In this document: piece after piece, positions 2,862 to 61,967 of the stretch
Layout of the letters: each line of letters opens with the position of its first letter
Position numbering within the stretch: the stretch's first letter is position 1
Position numbers and translations under genes: made by a program
IMG/VR virus record: IMGVR_UViG_3300006931_000002
Coordinates: 1 to 64,000 of that record
Source: a virus
Direction: 5' to 3' (one strand)
DNA length: 64,000 bases
The notes under the pieces: model-generated
What the model saw: the letters and a program-made list of their open reading frames with translations, nothing else
Told to the model about the DNA's origin: nothing
The model's database searches: none

Positions 2862-3290
2862 ATGGTCATCCGCTTCGAGATGGACATCGCCCTTCTCGTC
2901 GCCGCACTTGATGACCTGGCCGAACGGGGCCAAGCCGCGGCGCTGCTCGGCGCGCAGGCCGCCGCCGCGGTCGCCGAAACTTCCGTCAAACGGCAACTGT
3001 CGCTGTACAGCCACAAGAAGGGCACCCCGACACCGTCGCCCCGGGGATCACCTCCGGCGATCGTGTCAGGCACCCTGCGCCGGTCGGTCATCAAAGAGAC
3101 CGGCCCCGGCTATGTCGACGTCGGCCCGACGGCGGTCTACGCACGCATCCAGGAACTGGGCGGCGAGACCGGCCGGCGTGGAGCAACGACGCTGCCGCCG
3201 CGGCCCTATGTGCAGCCCGCCTATGAGATGTCGCTTCCCGCAATGCAGACGGCCGCGCTAGCGGCAATCAGGTATGCGCTCGGATTCTAA
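2862..3290 (+). CDS. HK97 gp10-like tail completion protein
   Basis: 142 residues. An N-terminal helix (LLGAQAAAAVAETSVKRQL) is followed by the family pattern of a short loop, SGTLRRSV, a VGPTAVYARIQELGG segment and the closing PRPYVQPAYE. This matches HK97 gp10-like minor proteins that act at the head-tail or tail interface. ATG follows the chaperone stop with no gap. The position after the chaperone rather than before the tail tube is unusual (see findings). Confidence 0.7.
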   Translation: MVIRFEMDIALLVAALDDLAERGQAAALLGAQAAAAVAETSVKRQLSLYSHKKGTPTPSPRGSPPAIVSGTLRRSVIKETGPGYVDVGPTAVYARIQELGGETGRRGATTLPPRPYVQPAYEMSLPAMQTAALAAIRYALGF

Positions 3291-3305
3291 CTTGCGGGGG
3301 CTGCG

Positions 3306-6300
3306 ATGGCTTCCGGCCTCCTACCGCCCGCAGTCATACGCCTCATAGCTGATGCGGCCGAGATGGCCGCTGGGCTGCGGGAAGCCACCACTCAGATCAA
3401 GGCGGCAGCCGAGCAGGGTGCCGCGGCGGTCAAGGCCGCAGACGACTCGATGGCCCTGTCCGGCGAAGAAGCGGCAGCCAAGTGGGGTGCGGCATGGAAT
3501 GCCGAATGGGCACGTCAGGGGGCCGCTGCTGAGAAGGCGGCGCTGTCCACGCAGGTCGCCCAGCAGCGGGCACTGACTGAGGGTACCGCCGAATATGACG
3601 CTGCGATGGCCGCCCGGGTCCGGGCGACCGAGGCGGCCGCCGAGAAGGAGAAGGCCGCGCAGAGAGCCGCCTTCTCCGACATGAACGACGCGGTGAGCGC
3701 GTTCGGCCGGAAAGCCGCAATTGGGTTGGCCGGCGTTGCCGCCGCCTCCATCTACATGGCGGCCAAGTTTGACGCCTCGATGGAGCAGGTTCACACCGCC
3801 GCTGGGGCATCACAGGGCGAGGTCGACAAGCTCAAGGGTTCTGTTCTCAACCTGGCCTCGCAGACCGGGCAGGGACCTGACGCGCTGGCCGCCGGCCTGT
3901 ACCACGTCGAGTCGGCCGGTTATCGCGGCGCGCAGGCGATGGACATCCTGTCGGCCGCGGCGAAGGTCGCGACGATCGGTAACGCGAACTTGGAGGACAC
4001 CGCCCAGGCAATGATCGCCACCGTTGCCTCGGGTATCGGCGGCGTGAGGGACATGAACGACGCCGCCGCGCTCCTCAACACCACCGTCGGTATCGGCGAC
4101 ATGCGGATGTCGCAGTTGGCCAAGGCCATGGCGACCGGCATCCTGCCGACCGCCGCGACCGCCGGCCTCAAGTTCACCGACGTCGCCGCAGCGCTGGCCA
4201 CGTTGACGGACAACGCCACACCAGCCGACCAGGTGGCCACCCACCTGCGGATGACGCTCACGTTGATGGCCGCGCCCACCGACAAGGCTGCGAAGGCGCT
4301 CGCCGGGATCGGCATGTCGCAGAACCAGTTGGCGATGGACATGCGGCAGCCCAACGGCCTACTTGTCGCCGTCGAAGACCTGCGAACCCATCTGGGGGCG
4401 ATGCAGACCGACGCGCAGAAGGCTGCCGCGATGCAAACCCTGGCGGACGCGTTCGGCGGTGGCAAGACCGCCGGCAGCATCATGACGCTGATCCAGGAAC
4501 TGCCGCGTCTTCAGGACAAGTACAAGGCGCTGGGCGACTCGACGTCACGGGCAGCCGGACTCCAGGAGTCATGGAGAGCCACCCAGGGCACCTTTAAGAA
4601 CTCGCTCGACCGGCTCAAGTCCAGTGCAGAAGTGCTCGGCATCGAACTCGGCAACAAGCTGATCCCACCCCTGGAAAAAGTCATCGAGTTTTTCGCGAAA
4701 CACAAGGCTGTCGCCGAGGGCCTCGTCATCACTCTTGGCGTGCTCATGGGCCTGTCGGTTGCGATGTGGATCGCCGGCATCGTCAGCGGGATCATCGCCG
4801 CCACGGCAGCGATGATCGGATTCGACGCTGCGGCCGACGCAAACCCGATCGGCGCGTTCGTGCTCCTCGCGGAAATCGCCATTGCCGCGCTCATCGCCGC
4901 ATTCTACGAGATCCGCAAGCACTGGAAGGGTATCTCCGAGGGCTTCATTACCGCCTGGCATGCGATCGAAATCGCCTGGTTCGCTACCTGGGATGCGCTG
5001 AAAACCGCGTGGTTCGCTGTCGTTGGCGCTCTCGAAACGGCGTGGCGTGCCGTGTCGGGTGCTTTCGTCACCGCCTGGGATGCGGTTGTCGGCGCGTTGA
5101 AGGCCGCGTGGGGTGGGATCGTCACTGCCTGGGATGCGGTTGGCTCGGCTCTGTCGACCGCGTGGCATGCGACCCTGTCGGCTTTGGAAACGGCGGCGCG
5201 GCCGTTCGTCGACGCCTGGCGGGCCACCGTCGGCGGGGTCGAAACATCCTGGCACGCCGTAACTCACGCTCTCGAAACCGCAGCCCGGGTCACCTGGAAC
5301 GCGATCAAGACGGCGGCGCTCGACGCCTGGCACTTCCTAGAGCCGATCCTCAAGGGCATCGCCACGGCGATCAACTATCTGCTGCTCCCGATCCGCCTTC
5401 AGGTACTTGCCTGGGAGATCGCCTACCGGGCCATCGAAAAGGCGGTCACATGGTTCTGGCACAGCGTCCTGGAGCCGTTCGGCAAGGGTGTTGCCTCGGT
5501 CGTCACCGGCACGATTGGAACGGCGATCCGCTGGCTCGAAACCGCTTGGCGAACCGTGTGGAATGCGCTCGGAACCGCGGTCAACTGGGTGTGGAACTCG
5601 GTGCTGCTGCCCGCCTTCCATGCGATTGTCTCAGGCGTCGAAACGTTCATCATCGGTAACCTTCGCCTAGCGCAGGCGATTTGGCACACGATCTGGTCGG
5701 CGCTCGGCACGGCCGTGTCGTTCGCGTGGAACTCGGTGCTGCTGCCGACGTTTCATGCGATTGCGACAGCGTTTGATGCGGTCATCGGCTTCGGGCTGCG
5801 TCTGCTTCAGGCGACCTGGAACGCTGTCTGGGGTGCTATCCGCACGGCTTTGTCCGCGATTTGGAATGGTTTCCTGTCGCCAACGTTTCATGCGATCGCC
5901 TCGGCGTTTGACGCTGTGATCGGGTTTGGGCTGCGCGCGTTGCAGGTTACCTGGAACACGATTTGGGGTGCGATCCACACGGCCGTGTCCACGGTGTGGA
6001 ACTCGTTCTTGTCGCCGACGTTCCATGCGATCAGCGGAGCGTTTGACGCGGTGATCGGCGCAGCGTTGCGCGGGCTGAAAACGACGTGGGACACGCTGTG
6101 GGGCGGGATCAAGTCGACGGTTACCACGATCTGGGGTGTCCTCAAGCCGATCTTCGATTCGATGGGCCGGGCGATCAAGGACATCACGGGTGGTATCACG
6201 GGTATCGCCAAGGGTGTCGGCGGGTTCGTCGGCAAACTGAACAAGATCGCCCCGTTCGCTGAGGGCGGTTCCCCACCAGTCGGCCAGGCCGTCCTTGTCG

Positions 6301-23222: not shown

Positions 23223-25154
23223 TCATGCCGAGGGGAGGGCTGCGGTCCACACATAGCGCGTATCCCGACCCTGCCCAACCGACTCGGCCAGGCCGGCGCG
23301 CATCCACGGATGAACCAGGTCCTTCATCACCTTCGACCGGCCCCAGCCGGTCATTTCCTCCAACGCCTGCCGGGCCATACCCCCAGAAGGTGCTGCCTTT
23401 CGCATTGCCTCGCGGCACACTTCCTCCGCACGACTACCGGACAGCACAGGGCCCTTCGGAGCGTCCGGTACGACCACCGGCAGGATGATCCCCGGCCGTA
23501 CCGTCGGCAGGTCACGAACCTGCGCGATTTCGCCCTCAACGGTGGTATCCGAGACCATTGTTGGCGTAGGGTGGGCGATGGCCGCCTTCTGCTGGTCGAG
23601 GGCCTTTTCGGCTTCCGCCCATTCGGCATCCGGCCGGGCGTTGCACTCGGCCATCGCCTCGGCGATCACTGGCCTGTTGTCCTTCTCGACCCGGCGAGAT
23701 ACGACCGGTATTCCGCGCCGATGGCCGGGGGTTTCCGCGACGAACTGGCCCTTGTCGTCCATCGTCAGGAGTTCCACGCCGCCGCCGTTCAGCACCGATT
23801 CGGCGGCGCCCTCGCCCATCGCGAACTGGATACGGTCCTGAAGCATGCGGCGGAACCGCCACGACCACACCCCAGGGCCGTTCGTCACCTGCGCGATCAG
23901 AATTATTTTGATGCCCGCGGCGCCGGTCCGTAGCGCCATCTTCTGCAACCATTCGCCCAGTTCCTCGCCCTGGTTCGACGAGGCGAAGCGGGGGCCTTCC
24001 TCGATGAGCAGCACATACACTGGTTCGTCGGCGGACGGCTCCCACACCTGCCAGTCCCGGTCGGCCATCAGCCGTTCGCGGCGTAGCAGCAGATGCCAGA
24101 ACGTTTCCAGAAGACGCAGGAAGTCGGCTGGCTGGTCGATGTAGCGGAATACCGAGCCGGAGAAGAACCGGAAGTCGCGGCCCTGGGCGCCGTCAGCAAC
24201 AAGCCAGGCCAGGTCGGGGGCCTGCTGGTACAGCTCCATCAGGCGAAGCATCAGCTCGGACTTTCCGATCCGGGAAGCGCCCGCGACCAGCAGGTTTGTC
24301 GCCCCAACCTCCTGGTCATACATGACCAGGCCGTAAGGTTCGCTGTCCCGGTAGGGGCCGACCTTGCCCGGTTCACAGATCGACTCTGCGGGCTGCTGGG
24401 CGAGCAGGTCGAACGCCTTTCGGGGGTCCATTTCCTGGACGTGGAGTTCCCCGAGCCACAGGTAGCCGTCAGGGTCTGCGGTGAAGGTGACTTCGCCGGC
24501 TCGCCGTTCGAGCCGTGACGTCAGGTTGTTGAGCTGCTGGCTATCGAGGTTGAGCGTGTACCCGTGGGGGACTCGCAGACGGTAGGTGTGGCCGACTCCG
24601 CGGTCGTCGCGGATCGCATAGCAGTCGACATGAGGCATGCCCTGGGCCTCGGCCACCGCAGGCCATGCCGCCTTCCTTGCGGAGAGGAAGGCCTCCCGCT
24701 CCGCAGCCCTGCGGAGGTCGTCGCGGCGGGTCCGCAACGCCGGATGCGTAGCCAGGCGTACCGTGCCGGCGGCTGCGGCGACCGCGGTAAGCAGGCCCAC
24801 GCCTGCGAAGCCGAGTGCGGAGCCGGCTGCGGAGGCTGCTGCGAAGGCCGCCCAGATGACCAGCTCATTGCGGAGGGGGCTGTTGCGGACCGCAAAGTCG
24901 ACCGCAACCCAGCCCGCAACCGCAAGGAGGATCGCAACCCACCACAGTCCGGCGATGCGGAGCACCGCACCGCCCGCAACCGTGGTCACCGCAATCGCTG
25001 CGGGGATCGCAAAGGGCTTGCGGGACGGTGCGGAAGGGTTGCGGAGTGCGGTGCGGGGTTGCGGAGTGCGGTGCGGGGTTGCGGAGCCCGTCGCGGAGCT
25101 GGGTGCGGAGATGCGGACCAGCTCCGCACGTCCAGTCGAGCGGGCGGCGGCCAT
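23223..25154 (-). CDS. FtsK/SpoIIIE-type DNA translocase, TraB-like
   Basis: 643 residues, AAAGGA site before ATG. Residues about 45-130 contain membrane helices (AGLWWVAILLAVAGWVAVDF, ASAAGSALGFAGVGLLTAVA). The motor domain has Walker A GASRIGKSE (about 292-299) and Walker B VYVLLIEEG (about 385). The C-terminal 70 residues (RQALEEMTGWGRSKVMKDL) look like a winged-helix DNA reader as in FtsK-gamma. Size and layout match the TraB proteins that move double-stranded DNA between Streptomyces hyphae without a relaxase. The adjoining wall hydrolase and Spd-like proteins support a transfer role. Part of the N-terminal linker is coded by TGCGGA-type repeats. Confidence 0.85.
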   Translation of the reverse strand: MAAARSTGRAELVRISAPSSATGSATPHRTPQPRTALRNPSAPSRKPFAIPAAIAVTTVAGGAVLRIAGLWWVAILLAVAGWVAVDFAVRNSPLRNELVIWAAFAAASAAGSALGFAGVGLLTAVAAAAGTVRLATHPALRTRRDDLRRAAEREAFLSARKAAWPAVAEAQGMPHVDCYAIRDDRGVGHTYRLRVPHGYTLNLDSQQLNNLTSRLERRAGEVTFTADPDGYLWLGELHVQEMDPRKAFDLLAQQPAESICEPGKVGPYRDSEPYGLVMYDQEVGATNLLVAGASRIGKSELMLRLMELYQQAPDLAWLVADGAQGRDFRFFSGSVFRYIDQPADFLRLLETFWHLLLRRERLMADRDWQVWEPSADEPVYVLLIEEGPRFASSNQGEELGEWLQKMALRTGAAGIKIILIAQVTNGPGVWSWRFRRMLQDRIQFAMGEGAAESVLNGGGVELLTMDDKGQFVAETPGHRRGIPVVSRRVEKDNRPVIAEAMAECNARPDAEWAEAEKALDQQKAAIAHPTPTMVSDTTVEGEIAQVRDLPTVRPGIILPVVVPDAPKGPVLSGSRAEEVCREAMRKAAPSGGMARQALEEMTGWGRSKVMKDLVHPWMRAGLAESVGQGRDTRYVWTAALPSA

Positions 25155-26440
25155 GGGGGTCCTTTCGTTACGGAGTGCGGAGGGGTGCGGACCGGCAGTG
25201 CGGAGGTTGCGGACCCTGTTGCGAGGTCAGGTGCCGATCCGCTGGGTGTCCTTCGAAAGGTCGGTGGTGAAGAACGTGTCGTGCAGCTCGAACAGGTTCT
25301 TCTCGGCGCGAAGGGCACTGGTGGCTGCGTTGGTGATCAGGTCGGCGCTCAGGCTGACCGCGCTGTGAACAGGCTTGGCGAGCCCGCGGCGGGCCGCTTC
25401 ATCGGCCGCGTATCCGATGCCGTCGGCGACCACGGTCAGAAACTCGGTGGTCCACATGTAGAGGGCGGCGACCTTCTCGCCCTTCGACAGGTCGACGTCT
25501 TGGATGCCCTTGGCTGCCTTGAGTAGCGCCTCGAAGCCGGGGTCCTGGAGGTGTTCACGCCAGTTCAGGTTGTAGGGGTGTGCGACGGCCATTGCGGTGC
25601 TCCTTGCGGGGTTCGATGCGGGCTGCGGACTGGTTGCGGAGGTGGTTGCGGACCCTGCTGCGGGATGCGGTGCGGAGGGCGCGGAGTCCGCAACCGGTGC
25701 GGAGGGGGGCGGTGCGTACGCATGCGGACGGCCCCACGTTGCGGAGCCTGTTGCGGAGTGCGGTGCGGAGGGCTCCGCAACGATGCGGGGCGTTGCGGAG
25801 CCGAACAGCCGGGTCCGCAGCATCCGCAGCAGGTCCGCAATCACGGCGACCGCCTCGACGGTGAACGGCGCTGCGGATGCGGGCGTCGGCCCGGTGGGGC
25901 GGCTGTACGTTGCGGACCCGGTTGCGGAGCCTGCGGGCTTGACGAATCTCAGTGCGGACCCGGGTGCGGGCCTGCGTCGGTTGCGTGCGGATACCGCAAC
26001 GGTGGTGCGGACGAACGCGGTCCCGCGGCGGGTGTTGCGGATGTTCGCACGGGCACGTCGCAGCGACGGCCGGGCCCGGTCCGCATGCCGCTCCGCAGCC
26101 TGCACGGTGGGCCGTAGCCGTGCGGAGCCGGCGACCTTGCTGCGGACCGCGGTTGCGGCCCTGCGACTCCGGCTGCGGACCCTTGCGGTCCACGCGGTGT
26201 AGATGGCGGGAGCAAACAGGCGGAGCAGCCACAAACCGAGGGCGACGGTTGCGGCGCCGACCGCGAGATCATGCACCCAGTCGGTGGGGGTGCGCGGCAG
26301 CGCGGGGATTGCGACGACGTCCACGGCTGCGGCGGCGATCTGGGTGCTGATCGGCGGGGCAGGTGCCGGGGCTGGGTGCAGGTCGATGTGACTGTCGCGG
26401 AGGGCAGCGGAGGCGAGGATGTTGCGGACGTAGTTCTGTG
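24670..26440. repeat. Array of TGCGGA hexamers across translocase and hydrolase genes
   Basis: By eye about 38 copies of TGCGGA occur on the + strand, against about 10 of its complement, usually as GTTGCGGA or GGTGCGGA. Dense clusters lie at 25020-25220 (including the 72-base gap between genes) and 25620-26190. Copies occur in several codon phases and in non-coding DNA, so the DNA sequence itself seems selected. Candidate recognition sites for the translocase. Confidence 0.75.
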
Positions 26441-27242
26441 TCTCCGGGAAGGGCGGGACGCCGTGATACCGGTTGACCGCCCCCTGTCCGGCGTTGTAGC
26501 CGGCCAACGCCAGGCCGATGTCGCCGCCGTTGGCACGGATCAGGTCGGCGATCATGTCGGCCATGGCGGGGATCGCGTCCGCCGGGTCGAGTGGATCTTT
26601 CCGCCCGTCGTTGTCGCCGTCCTCGCCGCGGGTTGCCCACGTCGTCGGCATGAACTGGGCGATGCCCACAGCGCCAGCAGGGGAGCTGATCGTCGGATCG
26701 AAACCCGACTCCTGCCATAGCAGGGCGCGCAGCAGATCCCGGGGGACACCGGTCCGCGTCGCCGCACGGTCGATGTAGTCGTTGACGCCGGGCGTGCCGG
26801 GGCGGATCGCCGTCTGGGCATGCCACTGGGCGAGCGGGGTGACGATCGTGCCCCAGGCGGCGCCTTTCGCCTCGACGACCTGCCCGCCGCCGACATACAT
26901 GCCGACGTGGCCCGGCTTCTCAGCTTCCGACCCGGAACGGAACACAAGATCGCCCGGTTGGAGGGCGGACGGAGACACCCAGCCGGCGGCGCCGATCTGG
27001 TCGGTGGTGACCCTCGGCAAGGCGATGCCCGCAGCCGCGTAGGCGTGCTGGACGAGGCTGGAGCAGTCCCACGAACTGGGTCCATTCGACCCGTATATGT
27101 AGGGTTTGCCGACCTGCGCCTGCGCGAACGCGACCACAGGTGCAACGTTCGGCGTGCCTGCGGAGGCGGGCGGCGTACATATGCCGGCAGTGGCGGTGGC
27201 CGCAACGACCACCGCCACCATGCGGGCGGGCAGACGGCTCAC
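25227..27242 (-). CDS. NlpC/P60 + lytic transglycosylase membrane protein
   Basis: 671 residues. Signal peptide (1-28). NlpC/P60 domain with Cys in SSWDCSSLVQHAY and His in KPGHVGMYVGGG. SLT domain (about 155-280) with catalytic Glu in LLWQESGFDP and GIAQFMPTTW, GYNAGQGAV. One transmembrane helix follows (VAIPALPRTPTDWVHDLAVG then ATVALGLWLLRLF). A long basic, disordered cytoplasmic segment coded by the TGCGGA array comes next, then a C-terminal helical domain (REHLQDPGFEALLKAAKGIQ). Such two-enzyme hydrolases open the wall in Gram-positive conjugation systems. Its position directly upstream of the translocase gene in the same orientation fits a transfer complex; a virion or lysis role is less likely. 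Confidence 0.85.
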   Translation of the reverse strand: MSRLPARMVAVVVAATATAGICTPPASAGTPNVAPVVAFAQAQVGKPYIYGSNGPSSWDCSSLVQHAYAAAGIALPRVTTDQIGAAGWVSPSALQPGDLVFRSGSEAEKPGHVGMYVGGGQVVEAKGAAWGTIVTPLAQWHAQTAIRPGTPGVNDYIDRAATRTGVPRDLLRALLWQESGFDPTISSPAGAVGIAQFMPTTWATRGEDGDNDGRKDPLDPADAIPAMADMIADLIRANGGDIGLALAGYNAGQGAVNRYHGVPPFPETQNYVRNILASAALRDSHIDLHPAPAPAPPISTQIAAAAVDVVAIPALPRTPTDWVHDLAVGAATVALGLWLLRLFAPAIYTAWTARVRSRSRRAATAVRSKVAGSARLRPTVQAAERHADRARPSLRRARANIRNTRRGTAFVRTTVAVSARNRRRPAPGSALRFVKPAGSATGSATYSRPTGPTPASAAPFTVEAVAVIADLLRMLRTRLFGSATPRIVAEPSAPHSATGSATWGRPHAYAPPPSAPVADSAPSAPHPAAGSATTSATSPQPASNPARSTAMAVAHPYNLNWREHLQDPGFEALLKAAKGIQDVDLSKGEKVAALYMWTTEFLTVVADGIGYAADEAARRGLAKPVHSAVSLSADLITNAATSALRAEKNLFELHDTFFTTDLSKDTQRIGT

Positions 27243-28312
27243 CCTGCCAGCTCCCGCGCTGCCTGTTCCATTTCCTCGCGGACTTCACGCTTCCGGCTGT
27301 CGATCGTCCGCGGCGACACCCCAAGCGCCTCAGCGGCGCGTTTGGTGAAACCTGGCTCCGACAGCGACCGGCCGGAGTTGACTTCCCGGCGAATCCACTC
27401 CCGCTGCGCTTCCCGTCGCACCTCGTCCGGGTCCTCTTTGACTGGGCCGGAGGCCAGTGGCGCGGGCACCTCCGCCGGGAGGGGTTCCAGCGCGGCGATC
27501 TGCGGCTGAGATTCGACTGCCCTCAGCGGGGTTGGGGCTGGAACCTCCTGTGGTGTTGAGGGCTGCGGCTCATCGAGGTCGACAGTCGCCCGGATGGGTG
27601 CCGTCGGCGCTGTGACCGCGTCCAGGGGTGGAAGGCCAGCAGTCGGCGCCGTCTTCTCGGCCACGCCTCCGAACAGTTCCGTGCCGGCCGGGGGTCTCCG
27701 CGACGCCTCCAACGCGAGCAACTGTACGGTCGCCTGATCCTCAACCCGGGCGACCTGACGGCGGACCGCGGCAACGGCCAACTGCGCGGACGCCCTCGAC
27801 GTCTCGGCCTCAACCCACTGGGCGTCCTCCGGGGACAGGGTTGGGCGGATCGCCCGGTTCAACGTCCACCACAGGGTTTTCGCGACGATCGAAACTGTTG
27901 ACCCGACGATGGCCATCGCCACACCGCCGACGCGGAGCCCTTCCAGGAGGATCGCGGTGACGGTGACGGCGAGCAGCGCCCAGCCGACACAGTCGACAAC
28001 CAGGCGCCGATTAGGCCGGTACCGGACGATGAACGACATGCCGAGCACAGCCAGCCAGGCAAGATCGAACACCGCGCCAGCGAGGTAGGCCGTCCATGTG
28101 CTTTCCAGCAGGTGCGCGATCGACACGGTCGACCAAGTGACCGAGATGAGAGTGAGGACCAGTACGAGGCCGCCCACCCCCTGGACTGCAATCGCGTCCA
28201 CGTCGCGGGGCAGCTTCGGAACAGCCACCTTGCGGACGCGGGTGATCGGGGCGGTGACCCCGTCGACCGTGTGAGTGGACTCGTACTTTTCGGTCTGGAT
28301 GCGGAACTTCAC
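27239..28312 (-). CDS. DUF2637/Spd-like membrane protein with C-terminal HTH
   Basis: 357 residues. Four transmembrane helices (about 42-140; GLVLVLTLISVTWSTVSIAH, LAGAVFDLAWLAVLGMSFIV, CVGWALLAVTVTAILLEG). A coiled coil and a Pro-rich cytoplasmic linker follow, then a C-terminal helix-turn-helix (TKRAAEALGVSPRTIDSRKR). This layout is typical of plasmid-borne DUF2637 proteins next to Streptomyces transfer genes, thought to help intramycelial spread. Its stop overlaps the hydrolase start. Confidence 0.75.
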   Translation of the reverse strand: MKFRIQTEKYESTHTVDGVTAPITRVRKVAVPKLPRDVDAIAVQGVGGLVLVLTLISVTWSTVSIAHLLESTWTAYLAGAVFDLAWLAVLGMSFIVRYRPNRRLVVDCVGWALLAVTVTAILLEGLRVGGVAMAIVGSTVSIVAKTLWWTLNRAIRPTLSPEDAQWVEAETSRASAQLAVAAVRRQVARVEDQATVQLLALEASRRPPAGTELFGGVAEKTAPTAGLPPLDAVTAPTAPIRATVDLDEPQPSTPQEVPAPTPLRAVESQPQIAALEPLPAEVPAPLASGPVKEDPDEVRREAQREWIRREVNSGRSLSEPGFTKRAAEALGVSPRTIDSRKREVREEMEQAARELAG

Positions 28313-28530
28313 CGTCCACCATCCGAACCGGCCTGACGGCTCTCCTGGTCAGCCCAGTGGTTGAGCTGCCCCTTCCAAGTGTCGAGATGGCCATCGGCGC
28401 CGACCGCCATACAGAAGAAGGTGCCGGCAAGCGCGCAGGCGATCATCCACCGCAGGCCGACCCTGCGGGCGGCGAAGGCGAGGATGGCCACAGAACCGAC
28501 GGCGATCACGCCCACGATCAGCAGGGCCAT
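28309..28530 (-). CDS. Small two-span membrane protein
   Basis: 73 residues from ATG 28530 (GGAG site). Two hydrophobic helices (ALLIVGVIAVGSVAILAFAA and MIACALAGTFFCMAVGA), then a charged tail. Overlaps the Spd-like gene by four bases. Likely a spread or transfer accessory protein by context. Confidence 0.7.
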   Translation of the reverse strand: MALLIVGVIAVGSVAILAFAARRVGLRWMIACALAGTFFCMAVGADGHLDTWKGQLNHWADQESRQAGSDGGR

Positions 28531-28546
28531 GGCTGGGTCTCCTCTC

Positions 28547-29062
28547 TCAGTGCAGGTGGGGGGCGACGACGTGGGTGAGGACAAACCAGAAGCCGGTTCC
28601 GGTTGTCGCCGTGCCGATGGCGACGGCTAGCAGGTGCTTCCACGAGTGCGACGCGGCGAGCGCGACATGCCCTGCGGTCCACAGGGCCAGAAGCAACGTG
28701 AACAGCGGCAGCGCTGCGACCAGCGCGACAATCAGGAAGATCGCCCACGCACCGAGGTGCGCGGGGACCTCGCCGGATGGCGCCTTCCACGGTGCCGGCG
28801 GTGGGGTAGCGAACTCCGGCCATGCCGGTGGGACGCTGTTCGCGACACTGCGGGACATCACCCGCAGTACCAAGTCACCTGGTTCGCGGCCACGTTCGAC
28901 GGTGACCGACAGGTCAACCGGGTAGACGGGTCGCGGGGCGACCGTCGTGGACGACTTCTTTCCCGCCGGGGCCTTGTCGCCCTTGCCGCTCGGGGTGGGT
29001 GCGGGCGGCGCCGACGGTCCCCGCATTCCAGGGATTACCACGGTGTCCGTGTCCGAGGCCAT
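28547..29062 (-). CDS. Membrane protein with disordered N-terminus
   Basis: 171 residues from ATG 29062. The N-terminal 45 residues are Pro/Lys-rich. A short beta segment (YPVDLSVTVERGREPGDLVL) follows, then two transmembrane helices (WAIFLIVALVAALPLFTLLL; AVAIGTATTGTGFWFVLTHV). Part of the tiny membrane protein run that precedes the transfer genes. Confidence 0.7.
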   Translation of the reverse strand: MASDTDTVVIPGMRGPSAPPAPTPSGKGDKAPAGKKSSTTVAPRPVYPVDLSVTVERGREPGDLVLRVMSRSVANSVPPAWPEFATPPPAPWKAPSGEVPAHLGAWAIFLIVALVAALPLFTLLLALWTAGHVALAASHSWKHLLAVAIGTATTGTGFWFVLTHVVAPHLH

Positions 29063-29346
29063 CAGCCGAGCACCCCCGCGGTGACGAACGCGGCGACGAA
29101 CAGGCCGAACGCAAGCACCGTCTGGCGCTTCCACCAGCCGGCGGGCTTGTCGCGGCGGAATCCGAGCGCGACAAGGCGGACGGTCGCCCAGCCTGCGGCG
29201 ATGAGCAGCAGGGAGACGAACATGCCGCCGTGGAGACGGTGGAAGACGGTCGCCAGGCCGATGACGGTCAGCGCGGCGGCGAACGCGAGAACGGACGGAG
29301 ACAGCCTGCGAGGGGTCGTGTTGGGGACGTTCGACGGCGGCTTCAT
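29062..29346 (-). CDS. Small three-span membrane protein
   Basis: 94 residues from ATG 29346 (MKPPSNVPNTTPRRL). Three hydrophobic segments (VLAFAAALTVIGLATVF, GMFVSLLLIAAGWATVRLV, VLAFGLFVAAFVTAGVLG). Its stop overlaps the next start (TGATG). Function unknown; context suggests a transfer/spread role. Confidence 0.7.
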   Translation of the reverse strand: MKPPSNVPNTTPRRLSPSVLAFAAALTVIGLATVFHRLHGGMFVSLLLIAAGWATVRLVALGFRRDKPAGWWKRQTVLAFGLFVAAFVTAGVLG

Positions 29347-29759
29347 CGGGCGACCACCAGGACGGTGAGAAGCAGCATGGCCAGCGCTCCGGCGAGCGGC
29401 CGGGCGAACCAGAACCGGCCGACCCGCTGGGCCTTGACGAGCTGGACGCCGTAGAGAACGGCGGTCAGGGCGAGGCCGGCAGCGACGCCACGGTGCAAAC
29501 CCCAGTGGGCCATGGCGAACAGAAGGGCGAAGGCGAGGACGATCCGCGGCGTCCACCCCTCGACAGTGGCGCCGTGGAAACGGGCGACCACCCTGTCCTT
29601 CACGGTGCTGGTCGTGGACTGCGGTTCGACCGGGATGCCGTAGGGCGGGGTGCGGTCGGAGTCGGTGTAGGACGACATGCGGCCAGCGGGGTTGGTGCAG
29701 GCCGGCTCGTCGACGTAGTCGGAGCCGTCCCACACGTCGGGGTCAGCGGGAATGGACAT
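29343..29759 (-). CDS. Small membrane protein
   Basis: 138 residues from ATG 29759 (MSIPADPDVWDGSDYVDEP). A polar, acidic N-terminal half and three hydrophobic stretches after about residue 68 (IVLAFALLFAMAHWGLH, GLALTAVLYGVQLV, AGALAMLLLTVLVVA). Overlaps both neighbours by four or fewer bases. Confidence 0.7.
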   Translation of the reverse strand: MSIPADPDVWDGSDYVDEPACTNPAGRMSSYTDSDRTPPYGIPVEPQSTTSTVKDRVVARFHGATVEGWTPRIVLAFALLFAMAHWGLHRGVAAGLALTAVLYGVQLVKAQRVGRFWFARPLAGALAMLLLTVLVVAR

Positions 29760-29964: not shown

Positions 29965-30194
29965 GGGGCGCCGTCCCGGCCGAAGTACTGGTCCGGGGTG
30001 ATCAGCTCGAACGGCTTGACGTGCCACGCCTCGCCGCTCTGACCGGTCACCTTGACGGTCTTCCGGTAGCGGGTACTGCCTTCGGGTTCGCACCGCCAGC
30101 AGTGGCATGCCGTGATGGTCAGCGGTCCGCCGATCGACGGGTTCCGGCCGTCGTAGTAGACCGTCTCGGCGACGGTGAGCGCGGGGCCGGTCAT
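29961..30194 (-). CDS. Small hypothetical protein
   Basis: 77 residues, beta-rich (ALTVAETVYYDGRNPSIGGP). One CHCWRC cluster suggests metal binding. Follows WhiB with a four-base overlap. Function unknown. Confidence 0.65.
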   Translation of the reverse strand: MTGPALTVAETVYYDGRNPSIGGPLTITACHCWRCEPEGSTRYRKTVKVTGQSGEAWHVKPFELITPDQYFGRDGAP

Positions 30195-30562
30195 GCTGCT
30201 ACCGCCGTCCGGGGAGACGGCTGGTGCTCGCGGAGCAGGGCGCTGCGTTCCCGGTAGGTCAACCCGCCATAGACGCCCCGCTTCTCACCGGTTCTCAGCG
30301 CCCATCTCAGGCAGGGCAGCCGAACCGGGCAGCCATAGCAGACAGCTTTGGCGCGGCGGCTCTCGGCGGCCGAGCCGGATCGGGCGGGGACCATGTTGAC
30401 GGCATCGGCGACCTGGCAGGCGGCACGCTGCCGCCAGTGCGGGTCGAACGGCCGTTCGGACACGGTCAACGTTCGGACTCTGGGCGCACTGACGGCGCCC
30501 ATCTTCGAGGCTGCGGCCTCGTCGGGCGCGCGCAACGGCGCGCCCGGTGGCACGATCGCCAC
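30191..30562 (-). CDS. WhiB-family iron-sulfur transcription regulator
   Basis: 123 residues from GTG 30562 after AGGAGG. The four cluster-binding cysteines are present (C49, C75, C78, C84, in AAC and AVCYGCPVRLPCLRWAL), followed by the G(V)YGG turn (RGVYGGLT, usually GxWGG) and a basic C-terminal tail for DNA contact. WhiB proteins bind the sigma subunit of RNA polymerase; phage versions can block or redirect host promoters. It is the first gene of the minus transfer operon and likely controls it. Confidence 0.9.
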   Translation of the reverse strand: MAIVPPGAPLRAPDEAAASKMGAVSAPRVRTLTVSERPFDPHWRQRAACQVADAVNMVPARSGSAAESRRAKAVCYGCPVRLPCLRWALRTGEKRGVYGGLTYRERSALLREHQPSPRTAVAA

Positions 30563-36710: not shown

Positions 36711-36900
36711 ACATCCTCTCCGCCCTGAAGGGCGAAGATTCCCGCCTGCTACGCCGCTGTCGGCGTCAGCTTCGGGTGGGTTCCCGCTTCGCCGCGCTGT
36801 GCCGGCACGGATGCCGGTCTTACCTGCGCTCCACGGGCAGACACCGCCAGTCCGGCGGCCAAAGCGACGTTGACCGCCGCGTTCACATCCCGGTCGTGCA
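36711..36900 (-). ncRNA. Candidate guide (omega) RNA region of TnpB
   Basis: In this family the guide RNA overlaps the 3' end of tnpB and runs to the element end, with host flank as guide. Here it would end around 36711 and take its guide from the interrupted gene at 36710-36690 (minus strand). The hairpin CGCCCTGAAGGGCG (36721-36734) lies inside. Extent is inferred, not seen. Confidence 0.4.
36721..36734. repeat. IS end hairpin (tnpB side)
   Basis: CGCCC-TGAA-GGGCG, a perfect 5-bp stem 10 bases inside the element end. Such hairpins are the TnpA recognition structures. Confidence 0.75.
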
Positions 36901-37954
36901 CCGACCCGCAGGCCGCACACGTCCACTCGCGGACGGCCAGCGGTTTCGGACCGTCCTTCACCCCGCAGGCCGAACAGGTCTGCGAGGTCGGCTCGAACCG
37001 GCCGATCTTCACGAAACGGCGCCCATACAACGCCGCCTTGTACTCCAACATGGCGACGAACGCTGACCATCCGGCGTCGTGCACTGACTTGGCCAGCCGG
37101 GTACGCGCGAGCCCCTTCACCGCCAGATCCTCCACAGCGACCGCTTGGTTCTCGCGGATCAGCCTCGTGGACAACTGGTGATGAAACTCGCGCCGCGCGT
37201 CGGCGACCTTGGCGTGCGCACGGGCCACCTTCACCCGAGCCTTGGCCCGGTTCGCCGAGCCCTTCTGTTTGCGGGACAGGTCCCGCTGTGCCTTCTTGAG
37301 CTTCTTCTCCGCTCGGCGTAGGAACTTCGGCGACTCGACCTTCGTGCCGTCTGACAGGACCGCGAAGTGCGTCAGCCCCAGGTCGATACCCACCTCGGAT
37401 GCGGCCGCCGGCAACGCCTCCGGGTCGGTCTCCACGACGAAGCTCGCGAAGTACCGACCCGCACTGTCCTTGACCACCGTCACCGATGACGGGACCGACG
37501 GCAGGCGCCGCGACCAGCGCACCTCCACATAGCCGATCTTCGGCAGGCGCAGTTTTCCATCCCTGACCGACCATCCGGCGTTCGCCGTGAACCGGACCGC
37601 CTGTCGCGTGTCCCGCTTCGACTTGAACCGGGGAGCGCCCATCCGGGGCCGCTTCCCCTTCAGTCCGTCGAAGAAGTTCCGGTAGGCCACATCCAAATCC
37701 CGGAGCGACTGTTGCAGCACCACCGCTGACACGTCGCCGAGCCAGGCTCGCTCGGGCGTCTTCTTCGCCTCGGTGATGACCAGCTTCGACAGGTCGCCGG
37801 ACTTCGGAAACGGCAGCCCATCCGCGCGGGCGGTCTCGCGGACGCGAAGCGCGTCGTTGTAGACCACCCGCGCACACCCGAACGTCCGGGCCAACGCCTT
37901 CTGCTGGCCGACGGTCGGGTACAGGCGGAAGCTGTACCGAAGCTGCACGATCAC
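36749..37954 (-). CDS. tnpB: TnpB, RNA-guided nuclease of IS605 family
   Basis: 401 residues. N-terminal RNA-binding region (YSFRLYPTVGQQKALARTFG), then a RuvC-like core with all three acids: Asp in GIDLGLTHFAV (about 190), Glu in AVEDLAVKGL (about 273), Asp in HDRDVNAAVN (about 354). The zinc ribbon TCSACG ... WTCAACG lies between the last two. TnpB uses a guide RNA from the element end to cut the empty donor site and keep the element. The 3' end stops 38 bases before the element end, where the guide RNA should form. Probably active. Confidence 0.93.
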   Translation of the reverse strand: MIVQLRYSFRLYPTVGQQKALARTFGCARVVYNDALRVRETARADGLPFPKSGDLSKLVITEAKKTPERAWLGDVSAVVLQQSLRDLDVAYRNFFDGLKGKRPRMGAPRFKSKRDTRQAVRFTANAGWSVRDGKLRLPKIGYVEVRWSRRLPSVPSSVTVVKDSAGRYFASFVVETDPEALPAAASEVGIDLGLTHFAVLSDGTKVESPKFLRRAEKKLKKAQRDLSRKQKGSANRAKARVKVARAHAKVADARREFHHQLSTRLIRENQAVAVEDLAVKGLARTRLAKSVHDAGWSAFVAMLEYKAALYGRRFVKIGRFEPTSQTCSACGVKDGPKPLAVREWTCAACGSVHDRDVNAAVNVALAAGLAVSARGAQVRPASVPAQRGEAGTHPKLTPTAA

Positions 37955-37970
37955 AGTCTAGCATTGGCTT

Positions 37971-38387
37971 ATGGCCAAAGATCCCGACATTCGCACTGGC
38001 AGGCACTGCGTTTTCGCGCTGCACGCGCACTTGGTCTTCGTCACCAAGTACCGGCACCGCATCTTCGACGACCAGCACCTGACCCGCCTGGAAGAAATCA
38101 TGCAGGCGGTGTGCGCCGACTTCGAGGCCGAGTTGATCGAGTTCAACGGCGAACGCGACCACGTCCATCTGCTGGTCAACTTCCCGCCAAAGGTCGCACT
38201 GTCCCGACTGGTCAACAGCCTGAAAGGCGTCTCCTCCCGACGGCTGCGCCAGGAGTACCCCGAGCTGGTCCGGCACTACTGGCGCACCCAGCGACTCTGG
38301 GCCGGGTCCTACTTCGCGGGCTCTGTTGGTGGCGCCCCGCTTGACGTCCTCCGCCGGTACATCGAGGAGCAGACCCGTCCGGTCTAG
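37971..38387 (+). CDS. tnpA: TnpA, Y1 transposase of IS200/IS605 family
   Basis: 138 residues, standard family length. HUH metal site H64-x-H66 in DHVHLLVNFPP and nucleophile Tyr130 in VLRRYIEEQ. HLVFVTKYRHRIFDD is the usual opening motif. It cuts and joins single-stranded DNA at the end hairpins. The start lies 16 bases from the divergent tnpB start, so both share one promoter region. Looks complete. Confidence 0.95.
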   Translation: MAKDPDIRTGRHCVFALHAHLVFVTKYRHRIFDDQHLTRLEEIMQAVCADFEAELIEFNGERDHVHLLVNFPPKVALSRLVNSLKGVSSRRLRQEYPELVRHYWRTQRLWAGSYFAGSVGGAPLDVLRRYIEEQTRPV

Positions 38388-44158: not shown

Positions 44159-45312
44159 GCGAGTGGAAATGGGTGATCGAGCGGGCGGTGACCTGCCGCC
44201 CGAACCGCGAGGACCCGCCACTTCCCGAGCCGCTTCCCAGCACGTGTCGGCTAGTGATGCTCGCGCTGTTGTCGCTCACTGTTTCTGATGCCGTGATCCG
44301 CGAGGACCGTCAGCCGTCACTGGGCGAGCTGGCAGGCATGGTGGGGATGAGTAAGGACGCCGTCAGCAGTGCCCTGAACTACTTGGAGGGCCGGCGCCCG
44401 CGGAAGGACGAGAAGGGTCGGCAGCGATGGACCGACACGGCCGGCAGGTCGATGCCAGTTGTCGCTGGCATGGACGTGTGGATCGTGCGGCATCGGCCTG
44501 CTACGGCAAAGTCGCTCGGCGAAGGGGAGACGACCCGCTACGAGCTTCTGCACCCGTGCGCCAAGTCTCCTGCCGGCACGGTCAGTAGTCCGGGAGCCGG
44601 ACAGGGTGTAGTCTGGGAGCCGGACAGGGTTGCCGACCCGGCAGTAGCCCGGGAGCCGGACACCCCTAGTCCGATTCCCGGACAGGGTGAACGGTCCAAC
44701 ACCCCGTCCGGTTCCCCGGTGCCCCTAGTCCGGGGAACGGACACCCCTAGTCCGGGAAACGGACACATTCCTTATCCAGACTGTAAAGACCTTCTAGACC
44801 AGGACAGCGCGACTTCGCGCGCCCCCATCCCGGCAGATGATCAGAATCAAGAAGCGCAGGCCACACTGCCCTTCGGACTGGCCGCCGTCGCCGCCACGGC
44901 TCAGACGCCACCCGCGTCCAAGACGGCAGCGCCGAGGAAGAAGTCTGGATCAAGGTCCGCGAAACCCCTCAGCGAACAAGGTTTGATCGCCAAGGGCATC
45001 GTGGACGAGTGGTGGGCTCGCCAGAGTCCGCGACCGGCATCACAGAAGTTCTGGCCAATCCTGAGAATCGTTGAAGGTCATCTCAAGGCGGGATGGACGG
45101 CCGAACAGACTTCACGGGCTCTCGACGACTGCATCACCGCCGGCTTTGCGATCACCATCAACACTTTCGAGCGTGCCCTACGGCAGCCCGGCAAGGTCAT
45201 CCAGATGCCGGCTCGTAACGCGGCTGGCTACCAGCCGTACCGCGACCCCGAAGACGAGTCGATCTACAACTACAGCTCGACGCCTGCTACCCGGGAGGCG
45301 AGCGGCCAGTGA
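44155..45312 (+). CDS. Phage replication initiator with internal origin iterons
   Basis: 385 residues from GTG 44155. N-terminal winged-helix domain (SLGELAGMVGMSKDAVSSAL, about 60-80). The middle (about 145-205) is Pro/Gly-rich and disordered, coded by six clear iterons. The C-terminal domain (QGLIAKGIVDEWWARQSP, KAGWTAEQTSRALDDCITAG) resembles loader-contact domains of phage initiators. The layout parallels lambda O: DNA-binding domain, origin inside the gene, helicase-loader contact. Next genes are a DnaC-like ATPase and DnaB. It is expected to bind the iterons and recruit the loader. Confidence 0.8.
   Translation: MSEWKWVIERAVTCRPNREDPPLPEPLPSTCRLVMLALLSLTVSDAVIREDRQPSLGELAGMVGMSKDAVSSALNYLEGRRPRKDEKGRQRWTDTAGRSMPVVAGMDVWIVRHRPATAKSLGEGETTRYELLHPCAKSPAGTVSSPGAGQGVVWEPDRVADPAVAREPDTPSPIPGQGERSNTPSGSPVPLVRGTDTPSPGNGHIPYPDCKDLLDQDSATSRAPIPADDQNQEAQATLPFGLAAVAATAQTPPASKTAAPRKKSGSRSAKPLSEQGLIAKGIVDEWWARQSPRPASQKFWPILRIVEGHLKAGWTAEQTSRALDDCITAGFAITINTFERALRQPGKVIQMPARNAAGYQPYRDPEDESIYNYSSTPATREASGQ
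44586..44768 (+). repeat. Replication-origin iterons inside the initiator gene
   Basis: Six 21-bp copies related to TAGTCCGGGAGCCGGACA start at 44586, 44609, 44645, 44667, 44726 and 44748; a degenerate one lies near 44705. Each has GTCCG...CGGAC dyad symmetry. The spacing is close to two helical turns. An A/T-richer stretch (44765-44805) follows, a possible unwinding element. Confidence 0.85.
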
Positions 45313-61208: not shown

Positions 61209-61967
61209 GTGATCAGCCGCCAAGACTCCCGCCCGGCCTACCTTCAGATCGCGGACGACCTCCGCGAGGACATCGAGTCGCGCCGACTGGCAGCCGGCGC
61301 GCAACTGCCTACCATCGCCGAGCTTGTCGAGCGGTACGACGTCGGCACGAACACTGTCGTGCGCGCCATTGGCCATCTCCGCTCGCTCGGCCTAGTGGAA
61401 TCCCGCCAGGGGATGGGCAGCTACGTGCGCGAGGTTCAGCCCTGGATCGCGATCTCGTCGGAGTGGTGGTCGCCTCCCGGCAACGGAGAGTCGGACCACT
61501 GGACGCGGGTCAACCGGGAGCACGGCCACACGGGCTCCCAGGACGTCATCTTCGTTGGCACCCGCGTGCCGCCCGAGCGGATTCGCGACGAGATGGGCCT
61601 TGGCGACGATGGCACGGCGGTTCTTCGGGACAGGGTCCTGTTCCAGGACGGCTTGCCGATGCAGCTCGCCCGTAGCTGGTTCCCGCACGCGGTGGCCGAT
61701 GGAACCCCGCTTGCCGAAAGCCGGAAGATCAAGGGTGGGACGCCGCGGATTCTCGCCGAGCTGGCCGAGCCCCCAGTGGAAGTGCGGAAGGAGACTGTCG
61801 CCCGACCGCCGACGCAGGCCGAGCGTACGGCCCTCAACCTCCCGGAGGGCATCCCGGTCCTGGACATATTGATGACCGTGGTCAACGGGTCGGGCGAGGT
61901 GATCGAGGTCGGGGAGGTCGTCGCCCGTGGCGACCGACACCGACTTCGGGATCGCCATCCCGCCTGA
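61209..61967 (+). CDS. GntR/HutC-type regulator (KorSA/TraR-like)
   Basis: 252 residues from GTG 61209 (GGGAGG site). N-terminal winged helix (RPAYLQIADDLREDIESRRL, LPTIAELVERYDVGTNTVVR, GLVESRQGMGSYV) and a UTRA-like effector domain (VLRDRVLFQDGLPMQLARSW; TQAERTALNLPEGIPVLDIL). Regulators of this type control transfer and kill genes on Streptomyces conjugative plasmids and pSAM2-like elements. Here it may repress the WhiB/transfer operon or its own promoter. Confidence 0.85.
   Translation: MISRQDSRPAYLQIADDLREDIESRRLAAGAQLPTIAELVERYDVGTNTVVRAIGHLRSLGLVESRQGMGSYVREVQPWIAISSEWWSPPGNGESDHWTRVNREHGHTGSQDVIFVGTRVPPERIRDEMGLGDDGTAVLRDRVLFQDGLPMQLARSWFPHAVADGTPLAESRKIKGGTPRILAELAEPPVEVRKETVARPPTQAERTALNLPEGIPVLDILMTVVNGSGEVIEVGEVVARGDRHRLRDRHPA

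Follow-up and report, generated by a model that had tools for sequence, protein, structure and literature searches.

In Streptomyces, the translocase TraB assembles at the cis-acting locus of transfer (clt), reads 8-bp TraB recognition sequence (TRS) repeats and moves double-stranded DNA; the spread of plasmids across septal cross walls involves spd genes, and SpdB2 of pSVH1 is a DNA-binding membrane protein that interacts with TraB (PMC4170104; we draw on excerpts of this and the other cited articles). TraB of pSVH1 reads its 8-bp repeats via helix alpha3 of the winged helix, the clt of pJV1 consists of nine 9-bp CCGCACA[C/G][C/G] repeats, and the clt of pWTY27 contains TGACACC direct repeats, overlaps traA by 16 bp and has been footprinted by TraA (PMC3583192). 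That a TraB address is made of direct repeats is therefore known. According to these excerpts, the clt/TRS systems of pSVH1, pIJ101, pJV1 and pWTY27 share a common layout: short direct repeats with an element-specific word lie beside or overlap a gene of the TraB/FtsK type, the product is a double-stranded DNA translocase with an N-terminal membrane part and a C-terminal winged helix, and genes of the SpdB2 or spread type are found nearby. Here we describe an array of the hexamer TGCGGA next to a gene for a TraB/FtsK-like translocase in the virus record IMGVR_UViG_3300006931_000002 of IMG/VR. The window, the stretch of DNA that was analysed, comprises positions 1 to 64,000 of this record of 115,477 bases. 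Judged by its PHROG-type protein matches, among them a terminase (5.7e-32) and a tape measure protein (1.5e-50), the record is an actinophage, a virus of soil actinobacteria. Phage genomes with plasmid-type genes have been described as phage-plasmids (PMC10879196), which the genome resembles in this respect. The array originates at the level of the DNA, and with moderate confidence we read it as an expanded, polar recognition locus of the clt/TRS type for the translocase of the phage itself.

The TGCGGA array and its codon context

The initial annotation, made from the sequence alone, had estimated by eye about 38 copies of TGCGGA on the plus strand and about 10 of the complement between 24670 and 26440, with fewer than one expected. 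Exact counting yielded 38 and 10. The remaining 113,706 bases of the record contain 48 copies on the plus and 35 on the minus strand, presenting an expectation of about 0.6 per strand in 1.77 kb, and no 1.77-kb segment outside the array had more than six. For the whole window, 102 copies (72 on the plus, 30 on the minus strand) were counted, compared to a mean of 55.4 and a maximum of 75 in 100 dinucleotide shuffles. The copies extend from 24678 to 26428, predominantly on the plus strand, but do not run evenly through the region: two dense blocks (24678-25213 and 25624-26179) are separated by 410 bases without any copy (25214-25623), which encode mostly a compact protein segment, and an outlier copy lies at 26423. 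The densest 1.5 kb hold 37 copies on the plus strand alone. Four copies, all on the plus strand, are located in a non-coding gap of 72 bases (25155..25226) 5' of the translocase gene. In its 48 occurrences of a 6-bp core adjoining a translocase gene, the array corresponds to the clt/TRS pattern of a short motif, about 7-9 bp, repeated beside a tra gene, and its sense form TCCGCA(A/C) resembles the clt repeat of pJV1.

The core is exact; outside of it, a preference was seen only for G at position -2 (35 of 48 copies), T or G at -1, and G or C after the A. The extended 8-bp form GTTGCGGA occurs 14 times on the plus strand. Flanks and spacings are variable, thus the array is not simply repeated in tandem, apart from a 20-bp unit in 2.5 copies (25036..25086, plus strand), the sole perfect tandem part revealed by a tandem-repeat search. 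This unit would suit a low-complexity drift, in which slippage and in-frame duplication in disordered linkers had spread a functionless word; so would the spacings, as 16 of the 29 shorter than 60 bases are divisible by three, with 12 as the most frequent value, and the location of the copies mostly in protein parts that look disordered. The exact core amid varying flanks and spacings argues against drift, and so does the distribution: one word in all codon phases fills separate genes and the gap, yet skips the compact segment between them. Slippage within one gene does not take a word to the next gene, either. Drift is decidedly unlikely.

A resemblance to polar motifs that orient chromosome translocases had also been proposed. 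FtsK orienting polar sequences (KOPS) occur throughout the chromosome and are directed toward the terminus, and the SpoIIIE recognition sequences (SRS) are a like polar motif for SpoIIIE. KOPS are read by the gamma or winged-helix domain of FtsK (PMC2680272). A short polar motif and a motor related to the phage translocase are common to these systems and the array, however TGCGGA is confined to one locus. To the left of the array 17 copies are on the plus and 10 on the minus strand, to the right 31 and 25, without a strand switch; the overall ratio of 48:35 is no significant polarity (p=0.19). A KOPS-like polarity of the genome was therefore rejected, and this part of the initial annotation is not supported.

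All genes around the array are on the minus strand, so that TCCGCA is the sense-strand form of the word. TCC GCA encodes Ser-Ala, and this phase holds 14 of the 21 plus-strand copies in the hydrolase frame. A cause on the protein level, i.e., a selection of Ser-Ala-Thr/Pro or Arg-Ala linkers which the DNA word merely follows, would account for such a phase preference. Recoding of the array peptides with the codon usage of the other predicted genes of the record (called throughout with a simple script) gave on average 2.5 plus-strand copies and at most 8 in 2000 runs; a local synonymous-codon shuffle, which keeps the odd codon choice, gave 9.0 on average and at most 17, compared to the 38 observed. 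Copies are present in all three codon phases in both array genes, the other phases code for unrelated residues, four copies are non-coding, and the otherwise rare alanine codon GCA accounts for 36 % of the alanine codons in the array region versus 7 % in the other predicted genes. Because the copies fill all phases and the gap, the signal resides on the DNA level. The failure of the codon nulls, the use of all phases, the copies in the gap and the excess of GCA together indicate that the word writes the linkers and not the reverse, as had been suspected in the initial annotation; the signal is strong enough to write linkers of adjacent membrane proteins. A protein-level origin was rejected on the basis of both codon nulls and of the linker-restricted nulls in four loci given below, and we consider it very improbable.

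Strand bias is expected for an RNA signal, too. Repeats of UCCGCA in the operon messenger may affect its translation or stability or serve antitermination, and the presumed transcript includes the array. However, 10 of the 48 copies are inverted, the location tracks traB and the partner membrane proteins, and neither a precedent nor a protein for an element of this sort is known to us, which makes an RNA-level role scarcely probable.

The translocase and its operon

The translocase gene (23223..25154, minus strand) encodes 643 amino acids with an array-coded N-terminal tail, the Walker A motif GASRIGKS and a winged-helix-like C-terminal end. Profile matches and alignments assign the product to the TraB/FtsK-type double-stranded DNA translocases with a RecA-like FtsK motor: it matched phrog_1358 (FtsK/SpoIIIE-like, 1.4e-8), a Frankia TraB profile in hhalign (90.1 %, E 1.6e-6, 173 columns) and TraB-like proteins of other actinobacteria in 5 of 393 genomes at E 1e-6. 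GASRIGKS lined up with the Walker A motif of five TraB homologues, as did the winged-helix-like end where the C-terminus was complete, and the profile A3, which includes the translocase, matched the solved FtsK structure 2iuu at 2.9e-17. Hydropathy segments within residues 47-134 are in agreement with an N-terminal transmembrane part. The C-terminus is a putative winged helix; helix-turn-helix (HTH) matches were sub-threshold in two homologues (HTH_20 at 0.0057 in locus L208, HTH_IclR at 0.0098 in L168). The translocase alone had no Pfam or NCBIfam match and no match to PDB sequences at E 1. A tblastn search with the translocase against plasmids and phages gave no match, nor did its motor region when searched in phages at E 5, and scans of genomes and viral contigs with single proteins or the alignment A3 retrieved no relatives.

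The operon resembles the spread and transfer genes of actinobacterial (Streptomyces) plasmids in its combination of an SpdB2-like gene, a hydrolase gene and the translocase gene. The hydrolase gene (25593..27242, minus strand) codes for a protein with NlpC/P60 and SLT transglycosylase domains, a hydrophobic segment at residues 325-347 and an array-coded linker; its frame is open down to 25227. This extension is the compact segment of 121 amino acids (25227..25592, minus strand) that lacks array copies and is, by eye, probably helical. An ATG at 25592 with AAGGAG seven bases upstream offers a possible start of its own, yet is in frame with the preceding gene. The SpdB2-like membrane protein (27239..28312, minus strand) ends, by eye, in a putative HTH. 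Its label derives from resemblance and gene order: 59 % identity over 312 amino acids to a plasmid protein of Candidatus Protofrankia datiscae and 57-71 % identity to eight loci from Frankia-type genomes were observed, with no Pfam or NCBIfam match. Further small open reading frames (ORFs) on the same strand (28309..29759) are probably the remainder of the operon. Neither the SpdB2-like gene nor the phage nature of the genome had been noticed in the initial annotation. A WhiB-family regulator (PF02467, 1.2e-19) is encoded at 30191-30562, adjoining the transfer-like operon.

Actinomycete integrative and conjugative elements (AICEs) of Frankia are similar in that genes for SpdB2-like and TraB-like proteins are adjacent, the SpdB2-like proteins being the homologues with 57-71 % identity. 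In contrast, no hydrolase gene is inserted between the two in the loci seen, and 14 TraB-like loci had no array 5' of traB.

Arrays in other loci

The closest relative found, the IMG/VR contig 3300010397_000066, is 91-99.8 % identical over most of 56-95 kb of the record but spans only 56.1-94.6 kb, with the array outside. In five Frankia-type genomes, clusters of three TGCGGA were no commoner than those of a reversed control. Eight of 35 Frankiales genomes had a match to the triple, with no comparable array and at most 8 copies in the 3-kb neighbourhoods of 12 of the 16 listed places. A word common to the hosts was rejected by both results; the density of the array was not equalled in the record or in the inspected Frankiales places. 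Viral contigs contained at least 120 stretches with the triple; among the 120 loci analysed, the densest 1.5 kb had 20 copies.

A profile search over the 35 Frankiales genomes identified two loci, L208 and L209, and a viral scan with these two led to L222 and L223, whose contigs measure 80.9 and 83.1 kb; L223 and L209 are one and the same element. The contigs of L222 and L223 (relatives G395 and G396) are phages with terminase, portal and tape measure genes, and G395 encodes an integrase. L208 is located at the start of a contig of 67.6 kb and is probably a prophage, since 21 predicted proteins of the L222 and L223 phages, some of them mutual counterparts, match the first 28 kb of this contig. 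A tblastn search with the L208 TraB against plasmids gave no match. Among the relatives, the identity of TraB to that of L208 is 53-64 %; TraB of the phage described here has 28 % identity to L208 and 21 % to L209, and the tails do not align.

These loci carry an array of a different word. In L208, 46 copies of TGCGCG are on the plus strand within 3032-4531, at the 5' end of a minus-strand traB, and the totals for 8 kb are 59 versus 19. TGCGCG on the template strand of traB corresponds to CGCGCA in the sense direction. The linkers contain 32 sense and 10 antisense copies of TCCGCA in the present phage, and 48/10 (L208), 25/7 (L222) and 20/4 (L223) copies of CGCGCA. In permutations of synonymous codons, CGCGCA reached on average 13.8 (maximum 23), 9.3 (17) and 9.8 (18) sense copies in L208, L222 and L223, respectively; the sense counts of all four loci were reached in 0 of 2000 permutations. 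The words are nearly exclusive, with one CGCGCA in the present phage and 0-1 TCCGCA in the linkers of each relative. Occupied segments in the linkers of the membrane proteins and the N-terminal tails of TraB have 17.6-65 sites/kb, the TraB motor 0-4 and the compact segment 0-14; in each locus, the frame of the membrane-protein gene stays open into the compact segment. Relative to traB, all four loci favour the same strand, which also holds for the complete records of L222 and L223.

Location and polarity are hence kept and the hexamer is changed, as would be predicted for a cis-acting address read by the translocase of the element; for drift, a shared location and polarity without a shared word is a further difficulty. 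The expectation of conserved repeats but diverged linkers holds for the comparison of this phage with the relatives, but fails within the group of relatives. These three are mutually related, with tails conserved about as well as the motors; they therefore represent one lineage with one word, and the present phage is the second lineage. The conservation of the tails would also suit a selection on the protein level, which the synonymous shuffles in this phage and the relatives largely refute. In the winged-helix-like end, the stretch after a conserved GW reads, by eye, GRSKVMKDL in the present phage and xxxxT(L/M)Y(D/E)HL in the three TGCGCG loci. The sequences thus differ between the word classes as expected of a co-changing reader, for a sample of n=2.

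The reader of a recognition site may be a protein other than TraB: the SpdB2-like protein with its putative C-terminal HTH, or a phage protein resembling ParB or GntR, for which the site would be a membrane anchor, a centromere or an operator. By eye, putative HTH ends are present in the SpdB2-like proteins of this phage and of the relatives, and SpdB2 of pSVH1 has been described as DNA-binding (PMC4170104, in the excerpt used). The record encodes a GntR-like protein by eye (61209-61967), whose homologue comes after traB in L222, and a weakly recognised ParB-like protein (97257-97655, 8.5e-6). Both genes are distant from the array in this phage, though. Operators and centromeres need no fixed strand, while the four arrays share their polarity relative to traB, and in 4 of 4 loci the array drops off at the TraB motor. 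Such a reader is unlikely. The proposal of the initial annotation that the winged helix of the translocase reads a transfer locus was sustained as to the TraB/FtsK-type neighbour with a winged-helix-like end, the DNA-driven array, and the location and polarity in the relatives; which protein reads the word is less certain, given the putative HTH of the SpdB2-like proteins.

Among the 14 other TraB-like loci, four (L201, L204, L206 and L133) had an 8-mer in 5-6 copies on the 3' side of traB, contained in 300 bases, similar to ordinary clt sites. Those of the Frankiales genomes (L206 6761-6836, L204 7737-7993, L201 6942-7077) are candidate clt sites of AICEs. L205, with the next closest TraB by profile, had no clear array in a locus that includes masked bases. 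Three other arrays were set aside: TGGCATGA in L142 lies within a long ORF resembling a tape measure gene, CGGTGACA in L140 is about 7 kb from traB, and GAGGGTGC in L133 is in non-coding plasmid DNA. The L140 array (2133-2505, Parafrankia genome) has 12 copies on one strand and none on the other, beside a predicted nucleoside triphosphate-binding protein. In L133, non-coding DNA of a Protofrankia plasmid (4919-5707) contains 17-18-bp tandem repeats with CGAGGGTG and a second array of GTTCGGAAC, a candidate origin or clt of this plasmid.

Proposed role of the array and minor observations

In kind, place and partner genes the array fits the clt/TRS scheme, and for this reason we read it as an expanded, polar address of that type. 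Phage arrays differ from clt/TRS in favouring one strand about 3-5 to 1 and in being carried by phages. Several observations weigh against this reading. The polarity of the array is strong but incomplete (38 versus 10). Linkers of the phage loci hold 24-58 copies, whereas clt loci have about 3-9 repeats in 50-175 bp in the excerpts used, and the phage arrays, unlike clt, occupy a stretch of about 1.5 kb, for the most part coding, on the 5' side of traB and within it. Other TraB-like loci have their short repeat clusters, if any (4 of 14), just 3' of traB. The tail of SpdB2 is free of copies in the present phage, with 27 in the hydrolase linker, whereas the SpdB tail of the relatives is filled. 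The TraB tails of the three relatives are conserved to much the same degree as the motor (50-64 % versus 56-64 % identity), and L223 is the weakest case, because its strongest hexamers are the palindromes CGCGCG and GCGCGC. Only two motif classes are at hand, thus any covariation of word and winged helix has n=2. The AlphaFold model of the translocase was poor (predicted local distance difference test score, pLDDT, of 46) and was not used; the winged helix is based on sequence alignment only.

For the clt/TRS-type address, we infer binding, loading direction, septal or intercellular transfer and a benefit to the phage as follows. The C-terminal winged helix of TraB would bind the repeated hexamer, and many copies mainly on one strand would give the TraB hexamers a uniform orientation as they load onto the phage genome. 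Anchored in the membrane, TraB may then pump double-stranded phage DNA, together with SpdB2 and the wall hydrolase, across a septum or into an adjacent hypha during a prophage or plasmid-like phase of the phage. Copies would accumulate in coding DNA that tolerates them, namely in the portions for disordered tails and linkers of the neighbouring membrane proteins. A wider scenario is tentative and rather doubtful: a lineage of phages of Frankia and kin, at least some of them temperate, may have taken up the spread machinery of plasmids and move by their own TraB from one hyphal compartment or cell to another as naked double-stranded DNA, with the one-directional array as address for loading and direction and a word that changes with the winged helix, so that only the own DNA is moved. 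If true, phages of filamentous bacteria would have a second, non-lytic spread route derived from plasmids, and the boundary between phages and conjugative plasmids would be blurred further than by gene sharing. The arrays would then be a natural series of TraB-type pumps with different words, opening the DNA choice and orientation of the TraB winged helix to swaps of domains and words. A partial search of the literature on phage-plasmids and TraB systems retrieved no account of phages that combine a TraB/SpdB module with a recognition array; as far as this search goes, new aspects are the carriage by phages, the presence of tens of copies within coding DNA, predominantly on one strand, and a word that differs between phage lineages at a conserved place and polarity.

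Elsewhere in the window, a divergent pair of the IS200/IS605 type was recognised by eye at 36749-38387, with a TnpB-like gene on the minus (36749-37954) and a TnpA-like gene on the plus strand (37971-38387). Two pairs of 22-23-bp tandem repeats sharing a TAGTCCGGGA-like core are located at 44585-44766 in a stretch without confident genes and could be an origin or a regulatory site near replication genes. In L222, a helicase-like protein, by eye of the UvrD type, is encoded at 346-2631 and seems to be interrupted by an intein.

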